This document shows, piece by piece, positions 1,937 to 52,500 of a DNA stretch of 64,000 nt. Location: the NCBI GenBank assembly GCA_963931925.1, contig OZ007580.1, positions 317,501-381,500 on the forward strand, read 5' to 3'. The notes beneath the pieces were generated by a model, which had not been told where the DNA came from, did no database searches, and saw nothing but the letters and a program-made list of their open reading frames with translations. Made by a program: the position numbers and the translations under genes. The stretch comes from Onchidella celtica. Its lineage: Eukaryota > Mollusca > Gastropoda > Systellommatophora > Onchidiidae. Within the stretch, counting starts at the first letter, position 1; every line of letters starts with the position of its first letter.

Positions 1937-2099
1937 ATGTGTGAACAGAGCGATACACGTGGCCGACACAGCACATTTGTCCTGAAAGGCCGAGAAGAAG
2001 ATGAGGAAGAAAAAATGATGACAGGAAAGAATGAGATGGATAAGGAGGACGACGAAGGAGTTCCAGTGGATACAGGATGGGCATGGGTTATCGCTGTTT
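1937..2099 (+). CDS. Gene A exon 1 (N-terminus, start of TM1)
   Basis: Encodes residues 1-54 and ends in phase 1 at GTTT|gtaagtg. An acidic, lysine-rich N-terminal tail leads into [13 protein letters not shown], the SLC16 signature at the start of TM1. Paralogue exon 37419-37593 has the same [13 protein letters not shown] and the same donor position. Confidence 0.85.
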
Positions 2100-2921: not shown

Positions 2922-5900
2922 CATGCACACTTGATAGACAGGAGAAAAGACATGGTGAGAGGAAACTTGCAAACATGAACAGTCTAAAATGCTTTACCTT
3001 AGCTGGACATAAGGAGCTGCTCAGAGGGATAGAACTAAATCCTTTTGGTGAACGTCTTCACTTTTCTTGAAGTATTTGCAGATGATGCCTGGTCACAGAA
3101 GCTTTTAGAATAATTGTTCGGGAAAATATTTACCACTGGTTTGATACATTTGGCAGCCACCTCTTCATAAAGAACCCCGCATTCTTTACATTTTCTTTGA
3201 CATAATTCCAGATTCATAACTCTTCGCAGGGAAAATTGCAAAAGAATTGTTCTGTGGTTTGTGGTCTGCAGAAATTTATTCTCACTGTCATCTTTTCCAA
3301 CCAGAACTTGAAAAACTTTGAAAGCTTCTATAATAACTGACACGGCAAGATCAGACGGCCATACTAGACCTCCTCTGTCTAGAGCAGACAAATAGGTGTA
3401 ACGATCATCAGTCCCCTCCACATGAAGCGTTTTGTCTAGTCTTAACTCGTTCTTGCAGTCGTCACAGTTGGTGCATGGCATGGCAGTACCATGGAGACCG
3501 CATAACCTGATTCAAACACTAAAGCTTTTTGTTGTGCCTCTGTTAGTTCGACGTTCTCACAGTCAGGGATCAATGGCAGAAACTCTATATACTGTTGAGC
3601 TGAAGACGCTTTCAGTTGGGTAACTGTTTCCTCCAGAGTTTCAGTGAAATCTTTGAGTGTTAAAGTCCCTTTGGACGCTGAAACCAGTTTTAGGACGCTA
3701 ATTAGCTTGAGCTTTTTTTCTCCTTCAAGTAACTGTTGGACCGACACGTGGAAGTTACATCCACTCATTTGTCTGTACTGACTAAATCTAAATTCAAGGT
3801 TGTCGGTTTGGAACTTGCCTAGTAAAATATATTTGAACTTTTTATCATCTAACAGGTAGGAAGAAATTTCTTGTAAGCCTCTCAGTGTATGAGCCAGAGC
3901 AGTCATTGTCTCGTTCGATATAGTGCCTTCTCATGGTTTCAGATTTAACTTCTGCCACTCCTGAGGCCATTCAACTGCTTTCTTCATATACTGCATGTTC
4001 ATATCAGAGGTGGAGGTTACAACTTTAATGTCGTCATTCCTGAGTCTCTTAGCTTTGTATGGATGTTTAACATTAACTTTGTTCCACAGACGTAGAATTA
4101 TGTCTAGAAATTCTCTAGTGCCTCGTGTATCTTCCCGCCAGTGCTTCTCAAAATGCTGTAGGGCAAAAATAATTCGTTGATCAAAAACTTTAAGCATCAA
4201 TTTGACGTTCTGCTTTTCAGTAGCTGCTGGATACAAAACTTTTTGGTTCAGTGCCGGTGCCAGTTTTAGTGCCGACAACTTTCTTAAATGAGAAAATGAT
4301 GCTTTCATAATTTCAGTACAGGCAGAACTTTCAAATGAAGGAAACTGGAATGTTTTCTCCACATCTTTCTGAGCAAGCCAGTTATTTCTGATACATCTCT
4401 ATAAATAAGTGAAGACTTTGAAACTTTGTGCTCTATAGGTATAAAAACGGCTGGATGTAAAATCGTGAAATTTTCTGTGCTCAGACAGAACGAGTATTAA
4501 TAGGTTTTTACGATATCTGACTGCAGATTAAATATTGCAACGGATTTCTAAAAGTAAAACTAAATATAGTTCATTTAATTTCTCCTAGCGTGTTTTCATT
4601 CTTTTTCACCGCCCGATATTTTTCGTTCCGCCATATCGTTTCGCGATTTTTATAAATCTAGCAAATTTGCCAAAGTTAGCAGCAGCATTTCACAGACCTA
4701 TGCATGTTGTAAATCGCAGTCATTCACTTAAGTCTGTACACAGGCTTTTAGACATTTAATCTGACTAAAAATAATAAAAGATTTATGTTAGGCATAATAA
4801 GCACAGACTTTCAATCGGTCTAAATCAAACATCAAAATGCCTGCCACCAATCCGCAAAAAAATGAGCATGGTTTGGCCTAAAACTTAAAAATCTGGGCAC
4901 CACCTCATGTCCGTCAAACGTAAACAAAGCGGTCGGCGTCCACCATGTGCTCAATCTTGAGATTTTAGTTACGTTTGTGCTTCTTGCCTGGGCGTGTTGA
5001 CCCACAGTTACAAAAAATCCTACATCTTTATGCAAAAGTCAATATAGGGGAGGAGTTCCGTATGCGTTACATGTAATTTTTACCGTTATTAAGTAAAGCT
5101 TACTGACAGACAATAATAGGTTTAGGCTAGGCGATCGATGTTCACTTCGACTAGAGGCTAGGCCAGGCCTTGCCTTGATTCTTGATTCTTCTTCTCTACT
5201 GACTCTACAAAATAATAATAGAATCGAAGTGCACCTAAAACGTTACAAAACATGTGACATATTTTAAACAGTTAACTTTCAAACATGCCCCCAAAACGCC
5301 GAGCGACTTTAGGTCGTTCAACCCCACAAGCAAAGAGGATGAGAGTTCTCAGACTAAACTATACACTCTTCAGGCCTGAAATTTGGCAGGAAGATGGCAA
5401 TTGAGATAAGGAAGATGATGGCTATAATAAAAAGTTGTTTATTTGAAGCATGTATTTTTAAAAAAATAACAATGTTAATTGCTATGTAACATCTGTATTT
5501 TTGCATGTTTGTTTCGTAATATATAGTACCGTGCATGTCATAAAAAGTAACCGTATCAAGCGTTCAGTTTGGAGCGTAGTGTTCTGGTGCGCATGAGTTC
5601 TGAAGCAAGACTGTAGTTTATTACTTTTATATGAGAGAGAGAGAAGGAGCACATCATTGTTTATTCCGGGCAATGCCCGGTAGGTCAATCTTGTTTAAAT
5701 ATAATGCGCTGTGTCAAAGAGAAAGAACAATTTCTCAGAACAGCTGAAGGGATTCTGTGTAGAAAACTTCAATTCTCCTCCATACATTTTGGTCAATGCA
5801 TTACGATTTACTCTGTTGTTGTCTGAGATCACGCATACAACAGAATACACTACACTGTGGAGCAATTTCAGAACCTCAAGAAGCATATCGTACAACAATC

Positions 5901-8900
5901 GGTGGTCAAATTTTTGACAGGAACAATTCCCACAATATCTTTACTTTTGCATAACCGGGATGATACCATGAAAACTTGAGCTGTGCTGGCTTCTTGAGAC
6001 AGAATTTGAGGCTGTGCCTTCCAGTTTTCCCTCTTTGTAGGATACTTGGTGAGCGACATGAATTTCGTCTGACATTAAAATTACCATTCTCTCTCCCTCA
6101 TTCAAACTTTGACACTTTTGCTTCAAATATTCCCCGTGGACGCTTCCATCTGTCAATCCGCTTCCAATAGTAAATACTGATGAAAGTCTCTTCAAATATA
6201 AAGTTTGTGGTAGAGTTAGATGAATGTTTCTTAACATAGAATAGGTTCTAGGGGCTGCTGCAAAAATGTGAAAAGCCCAAAGCAGTGTTTCGGATGAGTA
6301 TCGTCTCACCGGAGAAGTCAATAGCTTTAACTGTTCCACCAAAGAGGAAAGTTTGTCTTTCTGTGGTAAAACCTGGTCTTCGCTGTGCTCATCAGTTTCT
6401 TCTGCTGGTTCGCCTAAGCACAAATTCTGCAAGCCGTCAACAAAAACTTGAATTTGCTGTTTGACATCCATCTCTTTGGCGCTGGCACTGGCGAAGTGTG
6501 ATAGCATTGTATCAAACTGTGACCAGGGTGTGGGGATAGGGGGAGATTGCTGACCAAAGAGCCATTTCAAAGATGTGTTTGGAACTTGAACAATACCTGT
6601 ATTCTCTTGTGTGAACATCTCTACGTGCATGTCAGAATGTACTCTAATTGCCCAAACTAAAGCTGCCTTGCTGCTAGGTAAATCTTGTAAATTGTGAAAA
6701 CTTCTCTGAACCTGGTGCTGGTCTCGATGTTTCTCATTATCCTGATGTACATGTGATGTTCTATGTAATGTTTTCTTCCCCCAGGTGTACATGTGATGTT
6801 TTCTTCCCCCAGGTGTACATAATTATGATGTTTTCTTCCCCCAGGTGTACATATGATGTTTTCTTCCCACATTTGTATATGTGATGTTTTCTTCCCCCAG
6901 GTGTACATGTGATGTTTTCTTCCCCCAGGTGTACATATTATGTTTTCTTCCCCCAGGTGTATATGTGATGTTTTCTTCCCCCAGGTATACATATGATGTT
7001 TTCTTCCCCCATGTGTACATGTGATGTTTTCTTCCCCCAGGTGTATATTTGATGTTTTTGTCACGAGTGGAGTGAGTGCAATTAAGGGGATTGCTACAGA
7101 GCGGGTGTAGAGTAAGAAAGGCTCACAGTAGACAGCAAGTTAAGCGTGCTGTTGTGAGTAGTGGGGGCGGGGTCTGAAGGAGGCGAAAGCGCGGTATTAC
7201 TATCACTGCAAGTTAGAAGGTCCTAGGGATCGGACCTGTGAATAAAAGCCCATCGGGCGGACATAAAGGGGAAGCAGTCGAGAAGACTAGTGAGAGTCTT
7301 TCCAGTTATGACTGGTATGTAGAACGTTGATTGATTATTATGATTGATGTATTATATTATATTCGTCTATTACCATGATGTAAATAAGTATATGTGAGGA
7401 ATGTGGAAGTCCTTGATATTGGATATAGCAATGTGCGCCACGAGCGATAGATGAAAGTGAGTTCATGGATTTGTAGCGCGAGTGAGTAGTGTGTACTCCG
7501 ATGGAGGTGTGTTACCGTAAGATGTGTGGTGAGTGAAAGGTGAACTAGTGTGTGTACGTTTCATGGGTTGTAAGGAGAGGTGGAGTGAATAGAAATGGTA
7601 GGGTATTATACCATTGTAATGTTATTCTTGTAGGTGTCGGGGACGGGCCGCAGAGCCACCTCGATGAGCACAGGGGATAGGCCAGCATAGGGCCGGAGGC
7701 CACACATAGGCCAGAAGTGAGGCTGTCAGTGCAGGACAGTAGAGGCACATAAAGTCGTGGCAGTCAGGTCACGGACAGGGACGTAGATATGAGAGTGAAT
7801 GAGATACTATATTGTTGCCATGTTGATAGGCTAGTGAACTGATATTATGTTGTTGCCATGTTGATGGCTAGGGAAATAATAATGTGTTATTGCCCTGCTG
7901 AGGTGCTAGGGGAGTGCTAAGGTGTATGACAATAGGAAGGGGATATTGAGAGACTGCGGTGCCAGTAAATTATTAATGTACTATTAAGACCCTGAGGGGA
8001 GAGGCTGAGGCCGAAGTGCCTTTAGGAGTAACTGCCGGATTGTGGATCCGAGGGAGAGTGTGTGTGAGAATAAGGCCGTTGTACGGCAGTGCATTTCAAT
8101 AATATAATGTATGTAATTGCGCTCTTATATGTATAATTATGTTTAATAAATGTGTGAGTCTGATGGATTGTTCTGTTAAGTGTTAACTTGTTTGTTCGTG
8201 ATTGTTGTCCTGTCATAACTTATTACATCTCCCAGTCTGGGATTTGTGACAGTTTTCTTCACCCAGGTGTAAATGTGATGTTTGCTTCCCCAGGTGTACA
8301 TGTGTTGTTTTGTTCCCCAAGTGTAAATGTGATGTTTTCTTCCCCCGTGTGTATATACGATCTTTTATTGCCCCATGTGTTCATATGATGTTTTCTTTCC
8401 CCAGATGTACATATGATATTTTCTTCCAGTAGGTGTACATATGATGTTTTCTTCCCCCATGTGTTCATATGATGTTTTCTTTCCCCAGGTGTACATGTGA
8501 TTTTTTTCTCCCCGGGTGTACATGTGATGTTTTCTTTCCTCAGATGTACATATGATGTTTCTTCCCCCAGGTGTACATATGATGTTTTCTTCTCCCAGGT
8601 GTATATAGGATGTTTTCTTCCCCCCGGTGTACATGTGATGTTTTCTTTCCACGGGTGTACATGCGATGTTTTCTTCCCACAGGTGTACATATTATGTTTT
8701 CTTTCCCCAGGTGTCCATATGATGTTTTCTTTCCCCATATGTACATGTGATGTTTTTTTCCTCCAGGTGTACATGTGATGTTTGCTTACTCCAGTTGTAC
8801 ATGTGATATTTTCTTTCCCCAGGTGTACATGTGTTGTTTTGTTCCCCAGGTGTACATGTGATGTTTTTTTCCCCCAGGTGTACATGTGATGTTTTCTTCC

Positions 8901-11900
8901 CCCATTTGTACGTGAGATGTTTTCTTCTTCGAGGTGTACATGTTATGTTTTCTTTTGCCAAGTGTACATATGATGTTTTCTTTCCCCAAGTGTACATGTG
9001 ATGCTTTCTTCACCCAGGTGAATATATGATGTTTCTTACCCCAGGTGTACATATGATGTTTTCTTCTCCCAGGTGTACATGGGATGTTTTCTTCCCCCAG
9101 GTGTACATGTGATGTTTTCTTTCCCCAGGTGTACATGTGATGTTTTCTCCTTCCAGGTGTACATGTGATATTTTCTTCCCCCAGGTGTCCATGTGATGTT
9201 TTATTCCTCCAGGTGTACGTGTGATGTTTTCTTCACCAGGTGTACATGTGATGTTTTCTTTCCCTAGGTGTACATGTGATGTTTTCTTTCCCCCTGTGTA
9301 CATGTGATGTTTTCTTTCCTCATGTGTACATGTGATGTTTTTTCCTCCTTGTGTACATGTGGTGTTTTCTTTCCCCATGTGTACATGTGGTGTTTTCTTC
9401 CCCCAGGTGTACATGTGATTTTTTCTTTCCCCAGGTATACATGTGATGTTTTCTTCCTCCAGGTCTACATGTGATGCTTTCTTCCTCCAGGTGTACATGT
9501 GATGTGTTCTTCCCTCAGGTGTACATGTGATGTTTCCTTTCCACAGGTGTACATGTGATGTTTTCTTCCTCCAGGTGTACATAATATGTTTTCTTCCCTA
9601 GGTGTACATGTGATGTTTTCTTCCTCCAGGTGTACATGTGATGTTGACATTGATCTTCGGCTTCGACAGGGCTATTTCTGTTTTATTTGTGGATTTCACT
9701 GAACAATTTGAACAGTCAGCGACGGTCATCTCCTTGATATTTACAGTAGAAGCCTTGTCTTCCAGCATTAGTGGTCAGTTGTCTACATTGTTTAAAACTT
9801 GTACTGTATTAGCGATTCTCAGAGAATAAGAGTGTAATAAACTTAGAACCAATCATGTGACATTGGTAAATCTAGACGCCCTTCCTCCCCCCTCCACCGC
9901 CAAGCAAAATGTCATTTTGTGCATCAGAATGGGGTCCGCTGGAAATACGAGTTAAATAAATGTTTCCGTTTTCGTTTTTATGATACATCTGTAATGTCAT
10001 ACTGGGTTATCCAGACGCGACACTGGAGAGGAAATCGAGTATTTGCTTCATAACTCCCTTATTGTCTGCAGTAAGAAAGTGAGCAATCTTTCGTGTGGTA
10101 GTGGCAAACTGGAGATTGGAGTACAGTACATCACAGTGACTGGACAATGATGGTCCACATTTTGACACATCCAAATTATAATAAGAATTAATTTTGCTAT
10201 TTGCTTGGGAAGTGCTTGATGCACAAATGCAGTGAAAGAAGACGTGCTGGAACAATTTTCGAAGAGAATAAAAAAAGTCGGCCACGTTTAGTGCATTGCT
10301 TAACCCTTCAGTGTTTTGTGTATTTTGGGCAATTTCCTATAACATTTTCATATCAGGTTTTTTTTGTGTTTTTTGTTAGTTTTGTTCATCGCCAGTAAAA
10401 TCATGCCAAGATTCAGTGTCAGAAGTATCTGTTGTGTGGCTGGTATTTCTACATCAGTGGTCACCATCTGCATTTCTCGAGCACCAAACATCGCCCTTTT
10501 CTTGCTGCTCTTTGTGTTTAAAGGTAATGTCGAGACATCACATAGTCGATTTCCACAAACTAATTGATGAACAGGCTGGAGGGGGATCAAACATGGAGTT
10601 TTTCCATTAATTGTAAACTTTGAGCAGACTAACACTCCATTTCTTTGTTTGTTTAGTTTAGTTTTGTTTCAAAAAATGAGGGAAATTAAGTTTAAAATTT
10701 TGACAGAATTTTTAATCTGAAAAGTAGGCGAGAGAAAGACACAGGAAAATCAATTTGTTTGGTCTCATGGGATTTCGATGTTTGATATGAGTGAAAGACT
10801 GACAGATTTTGTCTGGGCTCACCAAGTTGTCTTAGTTTCCGACAAATGTGTGAACTTACATTATTCTGTCAATCGTGGGGACATTTAAGCTGTTAATTAG
10901 TCAGACAACCATTTGTCCGGGTAACCAACCAATGATTCAGCCCCCAAACTATGCAATATCTATGTGTCTGTTTCAGTACTGACTGGACTAATGAATCAGA
11001 AATTTACTTGCAACAATTATTCAACTTCATTCTCCTCCTCGCCCTCCCCCCCCCCCCCCCCCGACTTAAAACTGACCAAAATATGTAAGAAAAAAAGTTT
11101 ACAAACTCTGATTGAACAAAAAACAAAACAAAACCAGAACAGATATCCAACATGTCTAGGATGTCAATTAATATTTTATATAAAAAGCATGAAAGTAAAG
11201 CCAGCTCTCGACCCAGAGCCAAAATACATTCATTAAGTCATTGTTTTCTATGGTGTACTTTGCTGTTCTGACAGGTATGTGTTTTCAAGCTATTTTAGTG
11301 GGAACTTTGTCTATGATTGGCTACTATTTCAAGACGAGACGAGCGCTTGCGTCATCAATAGCCAATGCAGGACTTTGTATGGCCTATATCAGCATTCCAC
11401 CAATCACAGACATGCTCCGGTGAGTAGTTACTACACACCTCTGATTTTATGTTCATACAAATGTTATACACTACAAAGTTGTAACTCATGTCTCGACTTG
11501 ACGTTTAAGTGGTACACAGTTTGTTGCATGCCTACTGGACTATGCTTGATGTAATGGCTGGAATCCGGGGAATCAAAATGTACCAAAATCTCAATCTGGT
11601 CCAAAATCACACGTGATAGATTAAAGAAGCGCTGTTTTCCCTCTCAGCTCCTGTAACGTAATTACCCGCTTGGAAAACTGGGTCACAAATACACGACGTC
11701 GTGTAGTCATTTTATTGGTCATCTTAAAGTCTTTAAAAACTAGTCTTTTCTGTCCGACGTTCGATATCGACAACCAAACTAGCACAAATGGTAGGCATTT
11801 TCCACGGCATTTACCAATGCAACGGCGGGAGGAAGTAAACAAGAGGTGTTTGACGCCCTGTTCGTTCAGTCAGTAGAAACACTTGCCAAATCCCAGCCAC

Positions 11901-14900: not shown

Positions 14901-17900
14901 AGTTAAGAGAGAGAGAGAAAGAGATGAGCTAGGGCATGGGTAACGTGGAGATAGGCCAGACAACAGACTAGTGAATGACTCGCCCTATCGTGTGGCCTAA
15001 CACTGACGACATTGAACTTTTACTAATATCAAGCTTGGACTGCTATTGAAAATAAAGTGTGATTGCAAAGCTCCATGTACCACACAAATGGGCAATGGAG
15101 AGAGAAGAGAGAGGGAGAGAGAGAGAGAGAGAGAAAGAGAAAGCAAGAGAGAGAGAGAGAGGAGTCGAGGGTGAAACATGATTTACAAACATACATTAAC
15201 TCACCAACAACTGTGCTTTCTCTACTGACACGACTGATCCACTTCGTGGATCTTTTTTGGGTCACGCCATGGAAAACTAGAGGGGTGGGTAGTAGGGTGA
15301 GGGCAATTTTTATGAATGATTTGACGTAGGGTGAGGTACAAACCTAACCAAACCTACATAACATTAAAAACAAAACGTAGCCTCTTCCATTGTGGGTGGG
15401 ATACTGTCACGAGGTTTACTACAATCTAGATCTACTTACCACTTCGCATACATGCACTATTTAGGCTACTCGTGGCCTGAAATTAATGTGCTCACAAGTA
15501 ACAGAATTAGAAGTAGATGGCTAACGCCCCAACGGCTGAAAAAAACTAGATCTAGGCCTACCCTCAGGCTTTGACTTTGGGGGAAAGGGACACGTATTGT
15601 GGAGTCGGCCTACAATCCAGATATCTAGATCTAGATCTTCTAGACAGAATAAAATGTTATCGATATATTTTGGTCTATCAGCTTTCCTGTGAAATGACAG
15701 GGGATTTCCCTTCTTGGCCTTGTTGAAATATCCAACCGCGCAGCAACTTTGCACCATATTCTTCAACATTTCAACGTCCGATCGAGTCAGTTGAGAATGA
15801 TTCCAACAAACGAGCTAGATTTCTGGTCTAGAATAGATCTAGTCTACTTCTCAATTGAATAAACAGTTCAAGACACGATATTCTAAATAGCTTGGGCCAC
15901 ACGTCAATTGATTAACCTTCTCACAGTCAAAGACCAACACGCTGTTCTGCTTACAAACACGATGAGTCATGACCCATGCCGTGGTGGCCGCCACCGCCTC
16001 CATCTTGCACCGATTGGTATCCAATCAGTGACGTGTTTGGGCATTGTTTTGGGTCGTTTGTTTTTTTTTTAGACTACCATATCTTCTGTCTTTTCCCCGT
16101 TGAGAGACAGTCCCATTTTTTCACTTTCTATAACAACTGTGCCCAAAAGTCTCTGAAGTTGTGGTTCCGAGTTTTGCCATTAAAACTGTGTCATCTGCAT
16201 ATCTGGGATTGTTAAGATTTTCTCCATTTACTTTAAGGCCAGGGATGTCTTCCAAGTTCCTGAGGATCAACTCGCTGTGTAGATAAAAAAGATCAGGTGA
16301 CATCACGCGTCCCTGTCTCACTCATCTTTTACTGTTTTTGAATTCACGATGTTCTCCTTCTATTCTTACGGCTGCGCTTTGATCCCAGTAAAGATTTCGG
16401 ATAACCCTCAGGTCTTTGCCGTCGATGTCTAGTTTTTCCAAAATATTAAATAGTTCTTCGTGTTTTACTTGGTCAAAAGCATTAGAGTAGTCAATGATGC
16501 AGAGATGGAGGTCTTTTTTGCACTTCTATAGAACTTTCCATGATCATTGATAATGTAGAGATGATATGCCCGGTAGGCCTACCTATATACAACCTTTTCT
16601 TTTTGCCATATTTTGACTATGAAAATGTTATGGCTTGTGAGACTTCGTGTTTGCAGATTTCCAATGCCAAAAGCAGCATACGCCACCAATTTTTTTTCAA
16701 TATTTCAAAAGACTAAACAGAGAAAAAAAAAAGAAAAGATCTAATGATTTCACCAGAGCCAATGCATTTTTTATTACATTGTACATTATTCACACCCGAT
16801 CCCTTTGAGGTTACATTTTCTACAGAAAATCTTGCCAGCAACTTAAATACGAACACATTTGTTGTTTTATTCCTGATAAAACATAGAGATGAAAGATATA
16901 AAATGTTAATCTGTCTGGCTGTCAAATTTAATTGTGTTCATTAAACTCAATCAGCAATTGCAGATTCAATGTCGATTTGTGTGCAGTCAAATAAGAAAAG
17001 TTTTCCACAGATTTTTCATCTTTATTGCATTGTGTCCAGCAGCAGCAGCAGCTGATACCGGTGACATTCAGTTTCTATCAGGTGGTGACAGCAGTAGCTG
17101 GTAGCGGTGACATTCAGTTTCTATCAGGTGGTGACAGCAGTAGCTGGTAGCGGTGACATTCAGTTTCTACCAGGTGGTGACAGCAGTAGCTGGTAGCGGT
17201 GACATTCAGTTTCTATCAGGTGGTGACAGCAGTAGCTGGTAGCGGTGACATTCAGTTTCTATCAGGTGGTGACAGCAGCAGCTGGTAGCGGTGACATTCA
17301 GTTTCTATCAGGTGGTGACAGCAGTAGCTGGTAGCGGTGACATTCAGTTTCTATCAGGTGGTGACAGCAGTAGCTGGTAACGGTGACATTCAGTTTCTAT
17401 CAGGCGGTGACAGCAGTAGCTGGTAGCGGTGACATTCAGTTTCTATCAGGTGGTGACAGCAGCATCTGGTAGCGGTGACATTCAGTTTCTATCAGGTGGT
17501 GACAGCAGCAGCTGGTAGCGGTGACATTCAGTTTCTATCAGGTGGTGACAGCAGTAGCTGGTAGCGGTGACATTCAGTTTCTATCAGGTGGTGACAGCAG
17601 CATCTGGTAGCGGTGACATTCAGTTTCTATCAGGTGGTGACAGCAGCATCTGGTAGCGGTGACATTCAGTTTCTATCAGGTGGTGACAGCAGCAGCTGGT
17701 AGCGGTGACATTCAGTTTCTATCAGGTGGTGACAGCAGTAGCTGGTAGCGGTGACATTCAGTTTCTATCAGGTGGTGACAGCAGCATCTGGTAGCGGTGA
17801 CATTCAGTTTCTATCAGGTGGTGACAGCAGCATCTGGTAGCGGTGACATTCAGTTTCTATCAGGTGGTGACAGCAGCATCTGGTAGCGGTGACATTCAGT

Positions 17901-20900
17901 TTCTATCAGGTGGTGACAGCAGTAAAAAAAAAAAAAAAACTCCATTACCTTTCACTATGAGCGCTGTCAGGCGTTACTTCAGACACCAACTAATATTTTA
18001 CAGGAAAGTGTACACCAACAGAGTCAAAGTCCAAGAGAAGGACGGAAGAGGTAAACTAGAAGAGATGCCTGTTTTGGAAAATGCAAAGAACGGATACCTG
18101 GACTTGGTGAGTTCTGGGCCAAACACGAAAGTTCAAACATTTCTTGACGGAACAACAGAAGAACACATTCAGCTGGTCAAGGGAACACGTCATACTGGAG
18201 ATCCTGTGACCAGTAATGAGCAAGAGAAGGCTCAAGAAGACGGACACACAGTGCCTGATGTCCTGTCCAGAAGAATGAAAGCCAATACGATATATCATGA
18301 CATCTCAACAGAATCTCGGCCTACTGTGTGTCATTCATTAAAGTCAAATCTTCATGACCTGGGGGATAAGCACATTTTAAGCAGCAGTTTAAATAAAAGT
18401 TTATTGAATGACATGCAAGCGGCCAGTAGTCAGAATGATGAAGGAAAGTCTGGTCAGACAACAGCATCTGTTGGTACAGAAGTCACGTGTGACGTCATCT
18501 CTGATCAAGCTCAAACAGCATCCAATCAGTTTAAGTCGACAAGCTGCCACGGTTCCTACAGCAAAAACAACAATAACCAATATTGTGACACTCCCAGCAC
18601 TGACGACACGGCTGTTAGACTTGGAAACCAGATCTGCCCTCCATCTTCCACCGGTATCGGCTGCTCTGATCTGTCGTATACTCCCGCAAGTGACAAGGCC
18701 GATGTAGAGGAGATTCCTGACGACGTCGCTGATGACAATAATGAGAACAAAACGATGTGTTTAAGTTGGCTGAAGGACGTCATTGATTTGTCTCTGTTTA
18801 AGGTAAGCGCAGGCTGTCCCTTCTCCGGTCATTACTACTGTGGCCACGCTAATGTCATCAGATTTGCCAGGATATCAATTTACTCACTGACAAGGAGAAT
18901 ACAATAAAATTATTCTCGTAAGGGTGCGTTCCCCTGGAAATTCCTCCCAATTAATCTTAGCACTGTTTTCGTCTGCGAAATGGCCGCAGTAACGTCTTTT
19001 GGAAATGTTCACAAACTGTTCACAAGCTGTTCACAAACTGTTCACAAACTGTTCACAAGCTGTTCACAAACTGTTCACAAGCTGTCCACAAACTGTTCAC
19101 AAGCTGTTCACAAGCTGTTCACAAACTGTTCACAAGCTGTTCACAAACTGTTCACAAACTGTTCACAAACTGTTCACAAGCTGTTCACAAACTGTTCACA
19201 AGCTGTTCACAAACTGTTCACAAGCTGTTCACAAACTGTTCACAAGCTGTTCACAAACTGTTCACAAGCTGTTCACAAACTGTTCACAAACTGTTCACAA
19301 GCTGTTCACAAACTGTTCACAAACTGTTCACAAGCTCTCCCTCACCCTCACCCTCAGCCAGCCACACACACACATACCCACACACATACAATATACACAT
19401 ATACACACAACACACACACACAGGTATACACAGACACCAACACCACCCCTACCCCACCCCACACATCCTCACCACACAGCCACTAACACACACACAAACG
19501 CCAACTGCCAGTATTTTGCCTCTCTACCCAAGAATTTCTAGTCATGATTTTCTTCTGTCAAGATCTGGAGGTTCAGAATGATGTCACTGTACATTATGTT
19601 TGCCGTGTATATCAACTTTCTACCCATGTACATGCCGGCCATTGGATACACCGCTGGCATTGACAAATCTGATGCTGCCTTCTTGCTGACCATCAGTGGC
19701 GTCACCGATCTGATCACAAGAATTGTCTTGGGGTGTATTGGGGATTATCCTTGGGCTTCCGTATCAAAGGTGAATTTGTGAATTTATAGAATATTCTAGA
19801 CTGACGATTATAATAATTTTAGAACGAGATTATCTGTAGCGCGAAATTAGAACCACGTTGAAAGGTGGAGATTGCTAAGAGCTGTATTGCTGCTGGACAA
19901 TCAAGGTCCTGCACAAAAAGTCGTACTAAACCTGGCAGGTTGCTCACCCTGATGTAGATATATAGAGTAAGGTTATGAGTCTGCTAGGCTTAGCTGCGCT
20001 TTGTTGTTTTTTGTTTTGTTTAAGAGCCCGTGGTCTCTTGTTGACCTCTGTGACAACCTGAACTTAATCCCAACCCTAAACCCTAATCCTAAACACCCCA
20101 TTCCACCCCCTCTTCCATTCTCTTGATCCCTTAATTCCTTCCGGAGTCGTGCGGTCACTGAACTGGTGAGCATCGCACCAACTGCCTTCACTTCTGGCGG
20201 CCATGGACAACGGCCAGTGTTGTGTGTGGCAAAGTTTTCTACTGTCCATTCAGTAAGATTGTCTGTCCATTTCTTTATTTGTCTGCCCCGTCTTCACGTT
20301 ACCTGAACTGTACCTTGGAGGATGGTCTTTGATAGTCCACTGACTCTTGTCACATGTCCAGACCACTTCAACTTTCTGTTTACTATGTTCAGAAGATCTT
20401 TCTAGTGTCGAACATGTTGGGTGAAGGTTTTGTGCACGTCTTCACTTGTGATGTGGTCTGTGCACGAGACGCCCCCCCCCCCCCAGCCCCCTGCCATGTG
20501 ACCAGGTAAATAGGACGTTTTGTGCATATTTAATAAATAGCTTTAGTAACCTTGCTGTTTTCCTTCCTGATTTTCATTCTTCTGCTTCAACGCCTGCACA
20601 TGTCACCTGTAAATAGATTTGAGACACAGGGTGACATTTTGCACCGTTTGGCGAAGTTAGGTTTTGTTTGCACTATGAATTTTTTTTTTTAAGTTTTAGA
20701 GTTTGGGTTAAGGTTAATGTTAAGATTAGATCAATCAAATTGGCCTTGAAAATCCTTTGGTGGGCCCCGTGACCACAATAACATTTTAGGACACTGGCCA
20801 GCATTTAGTGACAAAACTATTGTGTTTTGGCGAGGTTTTTGAACTAAATATTACGTTTGTGATCACTTTTGTTTGTTTGTGGTCCAGACTATTAACTGAT

Positions 20901-37418: not shown

Positions 37419-37593
37419 ATGATGGCTCTGGAAAACCTTGACACAGAAACTGACAAAGGACTTTTGAGTCCTGGAGCTCATGGAGATGAGGAGAATGCTA
37501 AATGGAGGAAAGTTAAGGAGGAAGTTGAAAGGAAAGAAAATGACCATGAAGGAGTGCCAGTTGACACAGGCTGGGCATGGGTCATTTGTATAT
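37419..37593 (+). CDS. Gene B exon 1 (N-terminus, start of TM1)
   Basis: Residues 1-58, phase 1 at the donor TAT|gtaagt. An acidic and lysine-rich tail precedes [13 protein letters not shown], identical to gene A over that motif. Confidence 0.9.
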
Positions 37594-40500
37594 GTAAGTG
37601 GTTTTAAAATTTATCTTTTGTCACGTGAATAAATTTATTTCTGAGTGCTAGTTTTTTCACAAAAGACATTTTTGCTGTGGAGCATCAATTCAAAGTTCCA
37701 TATCACAACTTCAAAACTACAATGGAAATAGAAGAGTTGGTGATCATTGGACACTGGCAGCTTTTGTTTGATATTGGAGATGTTGTTGTTCTGCTTCAGG
37801 CAAAACTATCATACAACTCAGCTCTTATTTTACTCTGGACCTGCTAAATTGGTCAGTGGTATTTATCCTAGTACGACATTTCATTTTCATTGTGGTTGTA
37901 GTGATTAAAATGTGCTGCTTTTATATTTTTATATTCCTCTGCTACGGTTGCTGTTTTTGTTTTCTCGTTCTTGGTAGTTATAAATTATGATGTGACCATA
38001 AATATGACATGAAAGGATGTAAAAACCAAAACTGATGCTATAATAATTATCCATATATCATCAGTGTGCTGGCATTATAGCTTGATCTTTTGTATTCTCC
38101 TTGAGATCAAGCCCATCATTGTCACATGAACAATTCACAAGTAAAACAGTAAAACATACGTCTTTGTCTGTCCTGGCAATAATACATCAAACCATGAGAA
38201 ATATTTCACTTAAATGTAAAATTATGTTCATCCAATGACAATATATTTGATCTATAAACTGCTGACTGAAAAGTTAATTTGCAATATCTGTCACGAAAAT
38301 TCCCTCATTGGCTATGGTAAATAGATAGTTTTATTTTCCCCTGCCAGTTCTGGTGTAATTTATTGTTGTGTGTGGTCTGTGACTGCTGCTGGCTGTGTGA
38401 GTGCAGCTGTTACACCATCAAGAAATTACTACACACTAATACTTTTATGTTTATAGATCATCTTGATAATTAATATGTTGTGTGCTTAACATCATTAATG
38501 TTAATGTTATTTTGCTGATCTGTCTCTGGACTGACATAAAACTACCATACATGTATAATGTATTCAAGGAATGACTTAAATAAGGAAATAAACAAAATAT
38601 TTTATAGAAGTAAATGATTCAAGAGAGTAGTGACAGAACAATGGAGTAGCAGCTCAAAACAATTCTGTCCTCCCAAACTCACAAACTTTTATTACTGTTC
38701 TTCATTAATTAGAATCATCTGAAATATTTCACATAATTCTTTGAGTAAAAAAATAGATCATCTGTTTGTCTCCTCCTGACTTATTTTCCTTTTCCATTCC
38801 CCATTGTGTGTGTGTGTGTGCGTGACTGTGTGTGTGTGTGAATGTAGGGTGATGTCTTTAATGTTGGTATGACTAAATGTGATGGTACAGGTAGTTGCAC
38901 AGGTAAACTGAATTAAACAGGAGTTCAGCGGTGTGAACTAAACTTCTGTGTATGCCCTCTGACCCCCAGAAAAAAACCTGAATATTTGAGATGTATAGAG
39001 GCGCCAACACGCACATAATAATACATTTAATAATAATAATAAATATATAAATAACAACAAATGCTTGAGTCTGGTCTCATTTGAGCTAACTTCGAAAAGC
39101 TACATTAAAAGGACATTTTGAGCAAAACATCCTGTACACAACAACCTACTTAAAAAGGATCTTTCTTATGGATATCTATGAACATTCAACCAGACTTGAT
39201 CACACAGATAGTTGATCCCTAGAGCTTCACTGACAATGTATCATGTATTTATTGCACATTAAAAAGTTTTTGTTGGTGTAAGCACAGCCAGTTTTGTATC
39301 TCTCATTTCTTTGGTGTAATTGTAACTACTTCAGTTTGTTGAAAATTGACCAAACACAGAAATAAAATCAGCTTATATATAATTGCTGGGAGAGATTACA
39401 AGAGCATTGGTACTGGCTTGGGATATGACAGAATAAATTGATAAATCAGGGTTTTCACTGTTCACCTGTTGCTGAAATGGATACATAATCCCAAGACAAG
39501 AGTTTATCATTCATATTTGGTTTTAGTGTGTCTTCTGAAAGTAGATAAATTCTAGCGGTGTATATTTTGATGGCAAAATAGATACATTGTGCAATGTTCT
39601 GGACAGCTTGCCTTACTCATACTGAAAAAAAAAAAAAATTCTATTTGATATTTTCATCCTGTTTGTATAAATTTTATTGGAAAGAATCTGTGGGAACTAT
39701 TTCACTTTCTATTTTCTTTGCTCAGGTATTTTCCTCAACATAACGACCATCATGGGTTTCAATCGCACACTGTCAGTCATCTTTGTGGATATTGTTGAAG
39801 AATTCAGACAATCAGCCACAGTAATTACACTGATGTTTACTATACATGCCCTTTTTGGCAGTATTGCATGTAAGTAATCTCATAGATTGATCCTAGTGCA
39901 GTTGTATGTAAAAGCACCAACCTACAAGTGTACAAGTATCAAAGTGTGTATTAGATCATGTTTCTCTATGTATGTCTGATTACACTGACAGTTTAGGCCT
40001 TGTTTGTTAGTCTTTTGGATCAGATAGATTGAAATGACTATTGTTGTCTGTTAGTTGGAAAGAGATGTATTGTGTCTAATTACATGTTTGATATCCAGAG
40101 GTTATAATAATTTAGAGCAGAAATGTCAATTTCAGGTTGCGCTGAATGTAAAAAAAAACTTTTCAGATCATTTAAAATTTTCTTTTGCTTTCCTAAAATA
40201 TTGATCAGCTCTTTTTCATATTGAGGTAATTAAAACTGCAGGTCAATCCACTCTGTCATAAACTTAGTTTTTTTAAGTGACATAAAATTGCAAATTTCAT
40301 CAAAATTAAAAAAAAAAGACCAAGTTATTTGTGTTTTTAGCAAACTCAATAAAGCTGAACATTTATTTGAAAAGTTAATTTGTCAGTGTTATAAACCTTG
40401 CAATTCCAATCAATCTGAAATCATTTTTACAGTCAAGTAATACTGATATGTGGCATATATGGTACCGAATTGGATGATGGCAGTTAAACGTTATTTGATT

Positions 40501-43500: not shown

Positions 43501-46500
43501 ATATACTTTGTGTATTGGTTAGGGTGTAACCCATGTATCCTGTAGTCTTAAGAGACAAGTGAGAAGTGACTGGAGATCAAGGTAGCACCTCATCCTCGTC
43601 ATTCATACTTATTCTAGCTTTAGGACAGATTCCTGATGGTATTATTGGCATGCCTTTATATATTATTGATTCATCTTTCACATTCTTGCATGACTTGCGC
43701 TTGCAGGAAAAAGTTCAGGAAATTTTTTTGTGGCCTGGTTCCATCCCTGTAACCATTACCTTAACATAATCCAAACCATTACCTAAACCTAATACTAACA
43801 GTACCTTAACCTAATGCTAACAATGACCATATGGCGTAACCTAATCCTAACAGTTACCTAAGCCTAATCTTTAAACCAAACCCTAAAACTTTCCCTACAA
43901 GTCACTCTGCAAACAAAACCCAGTTTGGTCACATGACCCCAAAACTGCAAAAGTCATTCTGATAGATTTGGCTCTACTGTGTTGGCCATGAATGTATTCA
44001 TTCCAAGGAAGGACAAGCATGCCGGATTTACCATAGATTTCTTCATGACTTGAATGTCTAATCTGGCATGTTAACTCCTTCAGGACGTCAGTGTTAGGGG
44101 CCGGTCAAGTCTGGACGTAATTAATTTTTCCCCATTTTGGGAAAAAACAGCATGGTTCAGAAAAACGCTTACAGAAAACAAAGTACTGATAGTAAAGTAA
44201 AACATGGAATAAATGGACTTGACATATGTATGTAAGAAATTTGATTGTATTAAATTCAGTAGATATTCAATAATATTGTTGGTGGTCGCAGAAATACATT
44301 TTCTGTTCGCTAACTCAGTGTTTTTATGGTTCTTTCATATTTAAAGATTAGAGTATGGACTTCGAGGTTGCCTTTTGGTCATAGCCGCCATAGAACTCCA
44401 TCTAGTGGCAAGCAGCATGTTTCTGAGACCAGTCAGCAGCTACAAGTAAGGTTTGGTCATGTAATGTTGGTGCAAATCAGTGGTAACCCTGCCTTGTCAT
44501 TTAGTGGAAAGATAAGTCATGTTTCTTTACAGAAGGCAAAATATCATGAACTTTTATGGAACTCTACAAACTTCATTCCTGGTTTGAGCTATTTTGCTGG
44601 ACCTGTCATGAAATCCCACAAGGATGAAATACCTAATTTTACAGGAAAAAGAAAAATATTTTTTACTTGAAATGTTCTCCTTGTCTCAAGTATGTTTTTA
44701 CTTGTATAAATAAATATTTTAAACATCATGCTTTCCGTCAAACATGAGAGGAAATGACACTTTTTCATGATTTCACAGAATATTTTGTCATAATTGTTAT
44801 TTGTAGTTTGTTCGAACACACTTTTGCAGTTTCCTGATTGGTCAAGTGATTGCATATGGCATCAAGTTCTCTATCCAGTGTAACAAGTTAAAACATGATT
44901 CATTGTCACATAATGGTCTAGTGACCAAAGCTGGTCATTCACCAGCAGCAAAGATGTGAGAAGATGTGACAATCCTTTCTTTGCGCCTCTCCTCCCACCC
45001 TCAGCACACCAAGGACGAGGGTTAAACTATATTTACTATCAGTCGCCCCAGAAATCAAAGCATATGAAATGGGTGGGTGAGGGGAGGAGAAAAAAAGGGA
45101 GAGATTTTTCATTCGCCTCTGTCCTATCTGTTTCTCAGAATATACCTACTAGATCTATCTTGGGTGTGATGGTAAGCTAATAAACAAATCTCAGTTTGTC
45201 ACATTGCTACCACATTTAAAAGGGAAAAAATGGCCAGAGATTTCCTGTAGTGATTTAATTAAGTTATCATTACAAAGTAAGTGACTTCTATTGAGATCTG
45301 AGGTGATGACTAAACTGTGAACAAAACTCAATATTTTCCGTCCTCAGCTGTGTAAAGCAAGTCATTACTGACGTCTCTCACACATTTGCCACCAGGTGGC
45401 AGTGCGAAGACTCATGAACGCAGAATGTACCAGCTGTCCCATCTTAATGTATCTGATAGCTTTGCCAGCAAACATACAAGAATGACAGTGTATGCACATT
45501 CATCTCTTTAGTTTTAATGGACATTTTTTGTCAGGCTGTATTATAAAACACAGTTGATGTCACAAATCCCAGACTGGGAAATGTAATAATTATGACAGGA
45601 CAACAATCACGAACGAACAAGTATAACACTTAACAGAACAACCAACCAGACTCACACATTTATTATACATAAAAAATAAAGATATACGTGCATTACATTC
45701 TTCAGTTCAAATACCATTCAATGGTCAGTATTCCCGACATTCATTCTTCTACGGGTCCACAACCCGATAATACTTTCTAAAATATGCTCTGGCCTCAGCC
45801 TCACATCTATATATGTACTACCTGCGGGCCTCTCTTATTGGCTCCTGCTCAACCTAATCTCCGTATCTCAATCTCCCCTCGAGGTCTTAATAGCACATTA
45901 ATATTTCAATAGCACATTATATTCTCAATGGCACATTAACATCTTAATAACAACGTCCCTGTCTGTGGCCAGACTGCCACGACTCATGTGCTCCCGCTGT
46001 CCTGCGCGACAGCTTCACTCAGGCAGGCCTGTGGGTAGCCTTCTGCCCAACCCCGGCACAAGTCCGCTCACCGCGGGTGGCTTCTCGGCCCGACCCCGGC
46101 ACCTATAAGAATAACATTACATTTCTATAACACCATACAATTACTATCCACTTCACCACTCATTACGAACTATCAAGCGTACACACAATAGTCCACCTTT
46201 CACTCACGCCACCTCTTACGGTAACACACCTCTACTGTACCACACAACACTCAGACTCGTTACGAATCCATGATCCGAACTTACATCTATCGCTCATTGC
46301 GCCCATCTCTATACACGGTAGTCAATGACTTTCACATTCCTCACATATAACTTATTTACATCATGGTTGTCAGGGTTAGAATTTGAAGTGCCGTGCTGGG
46401 TCACGGTTTTGTTTATTTCATGTCATCATTGGTTTTGGCCAGTGCAAACGTCCTTGAACTGTTCCCGTGGACGGTTTGTTTTTGAGGCGCTTTTTCTTGG

Positions 46501-49500
46501 GGATGGAGAGAGAGTGGGGCAAGATGGAACGAATGGATAAGTTAACAGTGACGATGCAGTTTTCAACCCCGTGGTTTGGGTGTACTTTAACAGGGAAAGA
46601 CGGGGCGAATAAGGAGTGAATAAATTCGTACATAAAACGTAGAGGGTGTAGAGACTTTGCGAAAGCTTTTGACATCCTAAGTTTGACTTTGGCTGTTACT
46701 ATTAATAGACTGCGAGCTGAGCTCGAAGTGGATGCACCAATCAAATTTGAGCAGTCGCGCGGATTTGCAGAAGATAAGCGGAGACATCTTTATGTTACTT
46801 CACTCCATGCAGTGTATTCCATCCTGCGAGGGTGTCGGCTAAGGTTCAGCCAGAGATAACCATAAGACTGTTAAAGACATGTCTATGTCCTGGATAGACA
46901 ATGAAATAATCCACAGCTATTTTCTCCAGTTCCCTGAAATCGTTTCAGGGAACCAATCGTAAGTGTCTTCACAATGATTCGAGATGATGTGCATCTGACC
47001 CTAATTTTCCAGTAGAAGTGCTACCAAAGGAATGCAAGACCATAATATTTTACTTGCAATTAAGATCTAGAATGAGTGACTGGTATACACATTTGTAAAT
47101 TGTAATTGATGTGTCTGGATGAGGCTGGGGATTGCCAGCCCATCCTAGAGCAGATCTAGATCTATCTTAACTACGTCAGTGTGTCTTGACGGTTTGATCC
47201 TTTATAAGTAATTAACTGAGTTAATATTGTCGTCTGAGACATAAGAATATTATTTGTGAGATAGTAGGCAGACTATATTTCTGAAGATAAATAATTACTA
47301 AGTAAACTGTGAATGAGTCAGAATGATATGGATTTTCTAATCTTTAAGAATCTAGAGGAGACTTCTAGTTATGTATTATACTATTTTTATTTGATGCTGC
47401 TGATGTTGTCTTTTTGATATGTAAGATAGACGAAATTGTTAGGAATTTTAAGTAATAAATTTGTGGCCCTACAAGGTCCTTGATATAACGTACTCGAAAT
47501 TGTTATTAGTGTATGTGGCATGGTATGGCAGAGTAATTTCTAAAACCTCTCGATATTTTATTAAATGCAGTCGAACACGTAAATTTATAATTAACCATCC
47601 CCGTAAAACACGAGCACAGTAATCCCCATCGTAACACTGGAGGGGACACGTCTCATTTAATTTCCCATTAAAGAGTGTTGTCTTGTATTGGGGTTGGATA
47701 GTGCTTGTCCCCCTCAATTCTAGACGGTGGATGGATTCACATTTATCTTGTTCATTACTTTATGAACCAGTTTTACAATCCTTTTTTGTGAATATCCTCT
47801 TTCCACCAGCGTCATTCCTGACTGTGACCTGAACTTCTGGCAAACCTGACGCCCTTGTCAGCGGGTCAATGAGATGAGGACATGGCAAACCAAGCTACCA
47901 GAGCTACTGCTGCCATTGGATACCACAGTATTTTAATTAACAATATATTGTGTGTGAATGTGTATATAAGCAGCAATTGTGTGTGTTGACTAGATATTTA
48001 TAAGCCTATTTCTTCAGTAAGGCTTCATTATTTGATAATAGTTATACTTTAACCCAGCAGTATACAGTGATATACTCATTATTATTATAGATGTTTCTGA
48101 GAATTTTGATTGTGTGCAGTAAGAATGTTTAAATAGAATAAATTCTATAGAACGTGGCATCAATAATTGTATGCTTTTTGTCCATCCAGTATGCACGTTC
48201 TTAGTTAGATTTTTCTTCTCAAGCTTAAGACTCATTTTTCTACAGTACTACTTAAGCCCCTACCACAATAACTTTGGGATTTTTTGGATCTTATCGTGTA
48301 AATTTTTCTTAAAATTTTCACTGGGGTGGGGGATATGTCAGGGTTAGAATTTGAAGTGCCGTGCTGGGTCACGGTTTTGTTTATTTCATGTCATCATTGG
48401 TTTTGGCCAGTGCAAACGTCCTTGAACTGTTCCCGTGGACGGTTTGTTTTTGAGGCGCTTTTTCTTGGGGATGGAGAGAGAGTGGGGCAAGATGGAACGA
48501 ATGGATAAGTTAACAGTGACGATGCAGTTTTCAACCCCGTGGTTTGGGTGTACTTTAACAGGGAAAGACGGGGCGAATAAGGAGTGAATAAATTCGTACA
48601 TAAAACGTAGAGGGTGTAGAGACTTTGCGAAAGCTTTTGACATCCTAAGTTTGACTTTGGCTGTTACTATTAATAGACTGCGAGCTGAGCTCGAAGTGGA
48701 TGCACCAATCAAATTTGAGCAGTCGCGCGGATTTGCAGAAGATAAGCGGAGACATCTTTATGTTACTTCACTCCATGCAGCGTATTCCATCCTGCGAGGG
48801 TGTCGGCTAAGGTTCAGCCAGAGAGAACCATAAGACTGTTAAAGACATGTCTATGTCCTGGATAGACAATGAAATAATCCACAGCTATTTTCTCCAGTTC
48901 CCTGAAATCGTTTCAGGGAACCAATCGTAAGTGTCTTCACAATGATTCGAGATGATGTGCATCTGACCCTAATTTTCCAGTAGAAGTGCTACCAAAGGAA
49001 TGCAAGACCATAATATTTTACTTGCAATTAAGATCTAGAATGAGTGACTGGTATACACATTTGTAAATTGTAATTGATGTGTCTGGATGAGGCTGGGGAT
49101 TGCCAGCCCATCCTAGAGCAGATCTAGATCTATCTTAACTACGTCAGTGTGTCTTGACGGTTTGATCCTTTATAAGTAATTAACTGAGTTAATATTGTCG
49201 TCTGAGACATAAGAATATTATTTGTGAGATAGTAGGCAGACTATATTTCTGAAGATAAATAATTACTAAGTAAACTGTGAATGAGTCAGAATGATATGGA
49301 TTTTCTAATCTTTAAGAATCTAGAGGAGACTTCTAGTTATGTATTATACTATTTTTATTTGATGCTGCTGATGTTGTCTTTTTGATATGTAAGATAGACG
49401 AAATTGTTAGGAATTTTAAGTAATAAATTTGTGGCCCTACAAGGTCCTTGATATAACGTACTCGAAATTGTTATTAGTGTATGTGGCATGGTATGGCAGA

Positions 49501-52500
49501 GTAATTTCTAAAACCTCTCGATATTTTATTAAATGCAGTCGAACACGTAAATTTATAATTAACCATCCCCGTAAAACACGAGCACAGTAATCCCCATCGT
49601 AACAATGGTCCTAGGAGAATATAGTACATCAATCATCATAATTATCAATCACAGTTCAACCTACCAGTCATCACTGGAAAACACAACAATCTCCCGACTG
49701 CTCTCTTCACGTCTGTCCCCTTGGACTTTCTTAACTTGCAGTGACTTTTCACTACACAAGATTTACCTCATTGCCTTCACTTTACTCACGTCTTGCACGC
49801 TTCCACACTAACTAACAGAAGTCAATACAGGTGAGCAGCCTCACTATCCCGTGAGTCCATCCTACACTTCCATGCCCCCGTAATCCTTGAATCTCGCTCA
49901 CTCCACTCGTGACAGTTGAGATTGCAGGCTTTGGTATGTTAAGATGTCGCCCCTACATTTGGTATCAAATAGACAGTCATTCTTGCTCCTATGAACATGT
50001 TTACATGTATGGTTGTGTCTTGTGATTCTCTATTGTAAATGGCATTGGACTTACGATTCCTGATGAATTTTGAAACTTTTTTCACACATTATGATAGCAA
50101 GAGAAACTGGAAGGTCAAAGGGAAGAAAATCCATCTACATGTATTAAAAAATTTGAATTTAACATGAGAGAGATGATTTTAGTCAGAATTCAGAATTTTG
50201 ATGGTAAATGCAAAGGAATGAAGTGTGACTCTTAAGGGTACTGACTGATTGATCTATAACTCATGCGTTTGAAGACCTTATAAAGTCATAATTATGATGG
50301 TAGCTATGTTTTTTTACCATATTCTAATGAGACGTTTTTACAGTGGGTGGAATCAACATTGATTTTCTTGGAAAATGTCTTTAAAAAGTTGTTTGAAATT
50401 TGCCTCAGCTGGTGTTTCACACTAAATTTATGGAACTGTTTTTTTATATGTCAGATTGTCAGCCTGATTTTGAGTTTGCTCCTTAGTGCAAAGCTCTTTA
50501 TTTAAAACTTGATGATTTGACTTAAGTATTTAAAAAAAATTCTACAAATTTAACTATGCGGAACACTAAAATGTGTGTTCAGTCGAAGGGGAAAATGATC
50601 GGTGAATACTCAGTGAACAAAACTCCATGTACTAAAGTACATACAAAGAACATGGAAATGGGATTGGGTAAATTGGCTGCATTGGACTGTATTTCACAAC
50701 ATAACAATGAAGTTGCCAGATGGTAAAATGTTTTATTCACACAAAAAATGTGATACAAGTATTAACTTTGTTTGCTTTGGATCTGACATCTTGTAGCTGT
50801 ATATTTATTTAATGGTTTCTGAGATAAACTGTGACATAATTCTCCTGTCCTCGTTTGGCCAAGTGCGGTTCCATGGATTATCTCCCTTTGGTAGTTTGTG
50901 GGCTTCAAAAAGTCACAGTTACCTTTTCACATCTATCTGCATATTTTCTGGCATCAATCACTTGTGAAGTCAGGCACTCAGGCCTGCATGATTATTTCAT
51001 GTTCTAGTAACTAGTAATAGTTCTAGTAATATTCATACCCCTTGCCATTGTTCTTTAATTTCTGTTGGTCCACAGAAAAATGTATACCAGCAGAATGAAA
51101 AAAGAATTGGAGGAAGCGCTGTCGATAACGCCAATTTACAAAGTTCAAGAAAATGACAGTTCTCGATACAGGATTACAGGTACAGGAGATGGTCATTCCA
51201 AAATAGTTATCAAACAAGCCAATGGTCAGCCAGATACCAGTGCACGACCCTTACCAGTTTCTGACCCTCCAGTGCAAGAACAAGAAGTCAGCACTTCATA
51301 TGGAGGTGAACACCAGTGTTTATTGGAAATTCCTTACAAAACTGGTGGCGATGCAGGCCCAAGTGATGAAGAAAATGTATTTCGACAGAGATCAAATTCT
51401 GATTCTAGACATACGAAAAAACTGAGTGACAATGGTCACCTTACCGGTGGTCAGCACACCGGTGGTCAGCTTACCGGTGGTCATGCAAGCAAGACTGCAC
51501 ACGGATTCCCTGCTGTATTCTCCAGTCTGAAAAACTTGGATATTTCTGCAAAGGTGGAATTTGCACCCACAGAAAAAAGAGGCCGTCGTCACCATGTCAG
51601 TCAGCTGAGTGTAATCAGTATTGAAGAATTGCCATACATCCCAGCACAGGAAGATGACTATTCAACTAGTGATCAAATCTCTCAAGACAGAAACAAGTCC
51701 AAATGTTTTTTGAAAACACTGATTGACTTTTCATTGTTTAAGGTACATCAATGTGTGTTTCATCCTTCCAGCCAGTTGACCATCTTTCTTTTCCATGATA
51801 AAATTGTTGTTATTTATGCACCAGCTCCATCCACTTATTCATTCATTTCATCCAGTCTTTTGTCTGTCTTTGTTTTTCTTTCCTTATCTCTTCTGCCCGT
51901 TCTTTGTTTTGAAATTGTCCTTCCCTAAAGGGTGTCTATCATGCACAATGCTCTCATTGTCATTTCTATACTCTCTAAAAATGTTTTTCATAGTAATATC
52001 TACATTTAGTGTAGCTGGGATTTGCTCAAAAAGATAAACCAACAAGTTTTGATTCTCTTGTAATAAAAGAACACTCTTCATTTTTTTTTTCTGACAATGG
52101 AAATTAATAGATTAAAAATTTATCCATATCACCCCCCCCCCCCCCCCTAACCAGCAACAACAAAATCATATATATATTGTTATTAATAAATATTCAAATG
52201 TTATTTGAGTTGTGTGTTGTGTGAACTGCTGTGAGTTGTGAATTGTTGCGAGTTGTGAACTGCGCCTAACAGGCTGCGTTACAATTTGCTCTGAGATAGA
52301 GAGAGAGAGTGAGCGAGACAGGGAGAGAGAAAGAAGCAGTGCAGTGTGTTTGAGCGCTTCGCAGGCAGCTCCATTCTGCTCTGTGGTTGACATGTTGTTT
52401 CTGTAAAGCGCATAGAGCATTTTAAATGGATATGCGCTATATAAATGCTATACATTATTATTATTTCTGTTCTGTAGTCATTTTTTAATTCCATACGAAC

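Follow-up and report, generated by a model that had tools for sequence, protein, structure and literature searches.

A 64-kb window of the genome of the gastropod mollusc Onchidella celtica (positions 317501-381500 of contig OZ007580.1, here C14; coordinates without a prefix are those of the window) contains, ahead of exon 2 of a gene termed here gene A, a minisatellite of 28-bp units which was very probably born in place from the acceptor border of intron 1 and exon 2. A molluscan source agrees with Pfam Haemocyan_bet_s (PF14830), a family that marks molluscs, which has 33 matches in this genome, all lying on contig C7, against zero in 14 prokaryote genomes used as controls. By its predicted protein, gene A is a transporter of the monocarboxylate (MCT/SLC16) kind; the joined exons 1-4, from which all its protein matches were computed, matched MCT2 (E 2.4e-14), MCT1 (E 1.1e-13) and Pfam MFS_1 (46.2 bits, cut-off 33.4). 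The in-place origin is carried by direct observations, namely the identity of the repeat unit with the exon border, the single-copy state of this border in a paralogue, the restriction of the matches listed to such borders, and the outcome of a reading-frame test.

The unit, GTGTACATGTGATGTTTTCTTCCCCCAG, crosses the border of a real exon, being made up of 12 nt of acceptor and 16 nt of exon 2. The final 16 bases of the array (9630-9645, GTGTACATGTGATGTT) are at the same time the first 16 nt of exon 2, and TTCTTCCTCCAG lies directly 5' of them, as the earlier note on this DNA had described. Its account of an array of this unit ending at the exon 2 acceptor was likewise borne out, since decomposition into units gave 58 full units in addition to partial ones, nine of the full units lying at 6785-7040 and 49 at 8267-9629. 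The left edge consists of partial units, and a further unit is split in two by a solo long terminal repeat (LTR) of 1,193 bp that the earlier note had overlooked. The LTR starts with TGTCAC, ends with GTGACA and is flanked by a 5-bp target duplication, GTTTT, at 7054-7058 and 8252-8256. As the solo LTR landed within one unit, the two blocks represent one array that was continuous before the insertion. All unit statistics cover the 58 full units, the left-edge partials and the LTR-split unit being left out. The AG/GT pair is kept in many but not all units, with AG ending 41 of the 58 and lost from the other 17. The likeness of adjacent units along the array is weak (63 of 1000 shuffles scored as high).

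The working acceptor was sought by joining exon 1 by script to every AG between 6744 and 9640 (n=163, LTR included) and reading through exon 2. The AG before 9630 gave the sole stop-free join, none of the other 162 remaining open, and the 28-bp length of the unit means that one unit more or fewer shifts the frame. In the two best alignments of the spliced protein, both to MCT2, the junction of exons 1 and 2 is gap-free, a 4-residue gap occurring further along, inside exon 2, and the exon start at 9630 is common to the paralogues A', C and D. Together, frame and homology, rather than RNA, make a strong case that 9630 is the working acceptor of gene A, and the earlier proposal that the last copy is the working site agrees with the predicted joins.

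A protein search with exon 2 returned 10 matches, five of which, with E at or below 5.4e-9, correspond to gene A and to four paralogues termed here A', C, D and B (Table 1). Over the 144 nt of exon 2, A and A' differ at 5 positions and C and D at 15, with 26-31 differences between the two pairs and 58-62 to B, an older paralogue by this count. In a small tree, A and A' form one pair (bootstrap 67), C and D the other (bootstrap 83). As noted earlier, exon 2 of B starts differently (GTATTTTCC) and its intron 1 has no 28-bp array, holding only short unrelated repeats.

The occurrence of the unit was then assessed in the whole genome (1.14 Gb, 43 contigs, some stretches reading N), for which the match counts may be lower bounds. 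An 84-bp trimer of the unit gave, among the matches listed, 30 in two clusters, one being the array in the window and the other C14:278,295-278,574. A border pattern of 29 bases, GTTTTCTTNCCCCAGGTGTACATGTGATG, searched with at most 3 mismatches, gave 50 among those listed, of which 40 fall in the gene A array, nine in the A' array and one, in single copy, at the exon 2 border of paralogue C (C14:10,734,815-10,734,843, minus strand); the reversed control gave 0 matches in the 1.14-Gb genome. Paralogue D differs from the pattern at 4 places (hand count), which explains its absence from the 50. A dispersed satellite, the finding that the earlier note had set against its own reading, was thus searched for genome-wide and not seen, all 50 of the listed matches lying at exon 2 borders of three paralogues and none elsewhere. 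The confinement of the matches to these borders and the single copy in C point to the splice border as the seed, and the idea of an origin by multiplication of the acceptor border gains from both.

The border in single copy reads TTGTTTTCTTTCATCAG/GTGTACATGTGATGC in paralogue C (C14:10,734,828, minus strand) and TTGTTTCCTTCCGTCAG/GTGTACACGTGATGTT in paralogue D (C14:10,783,292, minus strand), where exon 2 starts with GTGTACATGTGATGC right after TTTCATCAG and with GTGTACACGTGATGTT right after TTCCGTCAG, respectively, once each. The 16 exonic nucleotides of the unit recur in C and D with one difference each, and VHVML is encoded at the start of exon 2 in A, A', C and D alike. The earlier note had taken the residues VHVML at the start of exon 2 for a change brought about by the array; this part has to be given up, as C and D encode VHVML without a 28-bp array, and the difference from IFLNI was misread as an effect of the array because gene A had been compared only with the distant paralogue B.

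The same comparisons bear on a foreign origin, in which a minisatellite from elsewhere, a satellite or a repeat carried by a transposon, would have landed beside exon 2 and supplied the acceptor with its TTCTTCCCCCAG, so that the exon gained 16 nt of repeat. An open reading frame (ORF) at 5941-6822 (minus strand) abuts the left edge of the array and resembles the RNase H domain of P-element-like transposases, at a score (17.5 bits) below the curated cut-off of 24.6 and with only two matches in the PDB, both weak (E 0.1 and 0.7); other arrays are also common in the window, with 33 rows of period of at least 10 from Tandem Repeats Finder within the 64 kb. Such an insertion is nevertheless very unlikely, as C and D share the border and the 16 exonic nucleotides, bar the single differences, without the 28-bp array, the unit is found nowhere else in the genome among the matches listed, and the protein runs gap-free against MCT2 over the junction. 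The single-copy border in C already opposes it, unless C and D once had the array and lost it.

The A' array comprises 10 full units and one partial, so that copy number is unequal between the paralogous arrays of this one assembly (58 full units in A). Four types of unit are identical in both arrays, one of which carries two substitutions and one deletion; the odd unit GTGTACATGTGTTGTTTTGTTCCCC-AG is common to both, and so is the last unit. These shared types and the last unit indicate that the arrays are related. Independent birth of the two from the same seed, for which the starting point might have been a direct repeat that C (CATGT, 5 bp) and D (TGTT, 4 bp) show over the border at a spacing of exactly 28 bp, is hardly credible in view of these shared units. 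The synonymous divergence (dS) between A and A' varies along the gene. It is 0.68 in exon 1, a value based on just 15 codons, falls to 0.10 in exon 2, 0.07 in exon 3 and 0.15 in exon 3b, is saturated in exon 4, and reaches 0.44 and 0.98 in two later exons. The low-dS stretch, from exon 2 to exon 3b, spans 9630-11420 in the window and C14:278577-286072, and introns 1-3 did not align save for the 58 bases at the end of intron 2. The middle of the gene, array included, seems from these values to have been recently homogenised between A and A'.

It is proposed that a 28-bp stretch over the border, made up of 16 nt of intron (TGTT to CAG) followed by 12 nt of exon, or of these 28 bp in a different phase, would have been duplicated in tandem in the ancestor of the A and A' arrays, perhaps aided by short direct repeats such as those of C and D. 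Replication slippage or unequal exchange could then have enlarged the array until A had about 60 copies and A' 10 full ones. The copy next to the exon would have stayed the working site because use of the others would shift or stop the frame, leaving the upstream copies as intronic decoys that are presumably used rarely or whose messages are destroyed as nonsense. The array would be tolerated because the last acceptor, together with the exon's own donor, still marks out exon 2 correctly.

It is also conceivable that the array is a maintained regulatory bank of decoy acceptors with AG/GT, in which nonsense products or stepwise removal of intron 1 set the level of the transporter. The retention of AG in 41 of 58 units, the stop met within or before exon 2 from all 162 upstream AGs from 6744 on, and the keeping of arrays in both A and A' agree with such a role, and AG/GT sites can double as donor and acceptor in human genes (PMC10809524). 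The units themselves give no sign of selection on AG, which is no better kept than other positions: the A is changed in 10% and the last G (G28), the third most variable position, in 24%, against a mean change per position of about 9% over the 28-bp unit. There is no clear trend along the array either, AG being present in 11 of the last 15 units and in 8 of the 15 that open the right block. GTGTAC, which we take to be a poor donor by consensus, counts against this role as well. Maintenance for regulation is therefore unlikely, the upstream units seem not to be maintained as acceptors, and the data hold no evidence of a positive function of the array.

Several points weigh against birth in place from the border. 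Paralogue C is no pristine ancestor, as both C and D carry an array of another unit (63 and 57 bp, respectively) at the same acceptor. The direct repeats are short and may be due to chance, and array-free B has a 5-bp one at a spacing of 29. The array's left edge in A is lost against the transposon-like ORF. Over 45 nt, the flank of A' shows no significant likeness to those of D and C (116 and 203 of 2000 shuffles, respectively), and a likeness to D emerges only once the stretch is trimmed post hoc (5 of 2000). Given the dS contrast, A and A' may share the array through conversion instead of descent. Finally, the use of 9630 in RNA is a prediction.

The second type of array lies just before the same exon 2 acceptor in C and D, and its unit includes an acceptor-like stretch as well as, in C, five exonic bases. 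Alignment of the C border (-45 to +5) with the 63-bp unit scored 61 (shuffles 19.5 ± 3.8, 0 of 2000 as high), with one 10-base gap and two 1-base gaps, and runs through GTGTA, five bases into the exon, such that the working acceptor of C has the appearance of the final unit of its own array. The D border scored 42 against the 57-bp unit (0 of 2000 shuffles as high), in a local alignment ending before the AG, and the B border, used as a control, scored 23 (461 of 2000). A 34-base pattern over the 57-63-bp unit gave matches which, among those listed, all fall at C and D (8 of 8; control 0). In a later exon of A' (C14:310,842), a two-copy duplication of 37 bp (310,776-310,851) lies over the acceptor, its copies being CCCTGTAG/GTGATGGCATT and CCCTGTAAG/TGATGGCGTTTTC; two bases differ, one of which moves the AG by 1 nt and so puts the frame of that exon in doubt. 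Taken with the 57-63-bp arrays, this duplication suggests that border amplification recurs in this transporter family.

The borders of 36 exons of five genes (nine each in A, A' and B, three in C and six in D) were scanned on both sides for arrays of period of at least 20 crossing the border or lying no more than 25 bases away. Four arrays were found on the acceptor side (exon 2 of A, A' and C, and the later A' exon) and none on the donor side; repeats of 12 bp occur by one donor of B and one acceptor of A'. A 60-base limit adds the array of D exon 2, a donor-side 25-bp array of A', 44 bases past exon 3b (C14:286116-286595, 19 copies), and, also in A', 2.3 copies of a 28-bp repeat that lies 59 bases ahead of exon 3. 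As protein matches define the exon ends only approximately, and as related exons do not count as independent, the leaning of arrays to acceptors is a lead and not a result. That acceptor borders of this family are recurrent birthplaces of minisatellites (28 bp in A/A', 57-63 bp in C/D, 37 bp twice in A') is accordingly a speculative idea, to which we give rather little credence. If true, active 3' splice sites, through their pyrimidine tract or structures formed during transcription, would promote tandem duplication, and the resulting AG/GT rows could serve as stepwise or decoy acceptors.

Other repeats and ORFs lie in and around these genes. Opposite-strand ORFs at 3035-6822 (minus strand) occupy intron 1 of gene A, and the three apart from 5941-6822 had no Pfam match. 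A further array with a 46-bp unit (17043-17922, 19 copies, most units with TATCAGGTGGTGA) is found in the intron preceding the loop exon of gene A; it was considered as another border array and discarded, since it runs out in an A-rich stretch without reaching the probable start of the exon. The solo LTR is 92% identical to 59002-60240 (minus strand); this stretch and 58610-59089 (minus strand) hold an LTR of its family beside an ORF with Pfam DUF5641. Comparison of ORFs also revealed near-identical copies at about 46322-47759 and 48235-49632, some 1.97 kb apart.

Table 1. Coordinates of gene A, its array and the exon 2 matches of its paralogues.
Feature	Position	Strand	Remarks
Exon 1 of gene A	1937..2099	+	ATG at 1937, donor GTAAGT at 2100, phase 1
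Left block of 28-bp array	6743..7058	+	Partial left edge, 9 full units, first half of split unit ending GTTTT
Solo LTR (1,193 bp)	7059..8251	+	TGTCAC...GTGACA ends, GTTTT target duplication; interrupts one unit
Right block of 28-bp array	8252..9629	+	Second half of split unit and 49 full units; intronic
Acceptor part of last unit, TTCTTCCTCCAG	9618..9629	+	Sole frame-open acceptor
Exon 2 of gene A	9630..9773	+	Opens with the 16-nt exonic part of the unit (9630-9645)
Paralogue B exon 1	37422..37593	+	Intron 1 without 28-bp array
Paralogue B exon 2	39726..39869	+	Starts GTATTTTCC (IFLNI)
Paralogue A' exon 2 match	C14:278,577		Protein search
Paralogue C exon 2 match	C14:10,734,826	minus	Protein search
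Paralogue D exon 2 match	C14:10,783,290	minus	Protein search

The birth of a minisatellite is rarely seen together with its single-copy source. Here a single-copy border, two related arrays and a different array at the same site occur in one genome, which allows an origin from a splice border to be argued from sequence. The locus is a natural setting in which to test how the spliceosome chooses the last among some 40 near-identical acceptors, as well as of the proneness of acceptor borders to tandem duplication, a proposed route of intron gain.

A human counterpart exists in the interferon-induced gene 6-16 (IFI6, G1P3), where a splice site next to an exon is likewise repeated in tandem; a 1995 study reportedly described a minisatellite of splice donors there, with a 12-bp unit. 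The likeness lies in the amplification, and the difference in what is amplified, the human repeat consisting of donor sites with a short unit and that of gene A of acceptors. Dual-specific splice sites with an AGGT motif in each tandem unit have been reported for UBC and VCX3A (PMC10809524). The units of UBC are coding monomers; those of gene A carry a splice motif of the AGGT type as well, but are intronic and, at 28 bp, not a multiple of 3.

The closest known system is that of the amphioxus 'mirages', tandem repeats over intron-exon boundaries with one 3' boundary case included (PMC3087553), so that the earlier statement that no named class of such minisatellites exists does not stand; of the interpretation as a whole, the amplification of the border has been upheld, and the residue change and the lack of a named class have not. 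The genes concerned are Adh3, the globins BflGb6 and BflGb9, TnC and PGBD5 (PMC3087553; PMC3902484), the last two being named in PMC3902484, and the units of the Adh3 mirage measure 10-72 bp (PMC3087553; PMC3902484). The BflGb6 mirage covers the 3' end of an intron and the 5' part of exon 2 and is present in 6 and 3 copies in two haplotypes, compared with about 60 copies in gene A, and reverse-transcription PCR data in amphioxus suggest that splicing is undisturbed (PMC3087553).

Like the mirages, the gene A array is a minisatellite-like duplication of a boundary in which many units carry AG/GT. It is unlike them in its host, a mollusc and not a cephalochordate, in the persistence of a single-copy border in a paralogue, and in the presence of two unit lengths at the same acceptor among paralogues. 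In the open-licence literature, no mollusc case of a mirage-type array was found by a search of which a small part named molluscs. On the evidence of its sequence, the gene A array belongs to the mirage kind, with more copies and a clearer ancestry than the mirages described in these amphioxus papers, and would extend the phenomenon from amphioxus to a mollusc.

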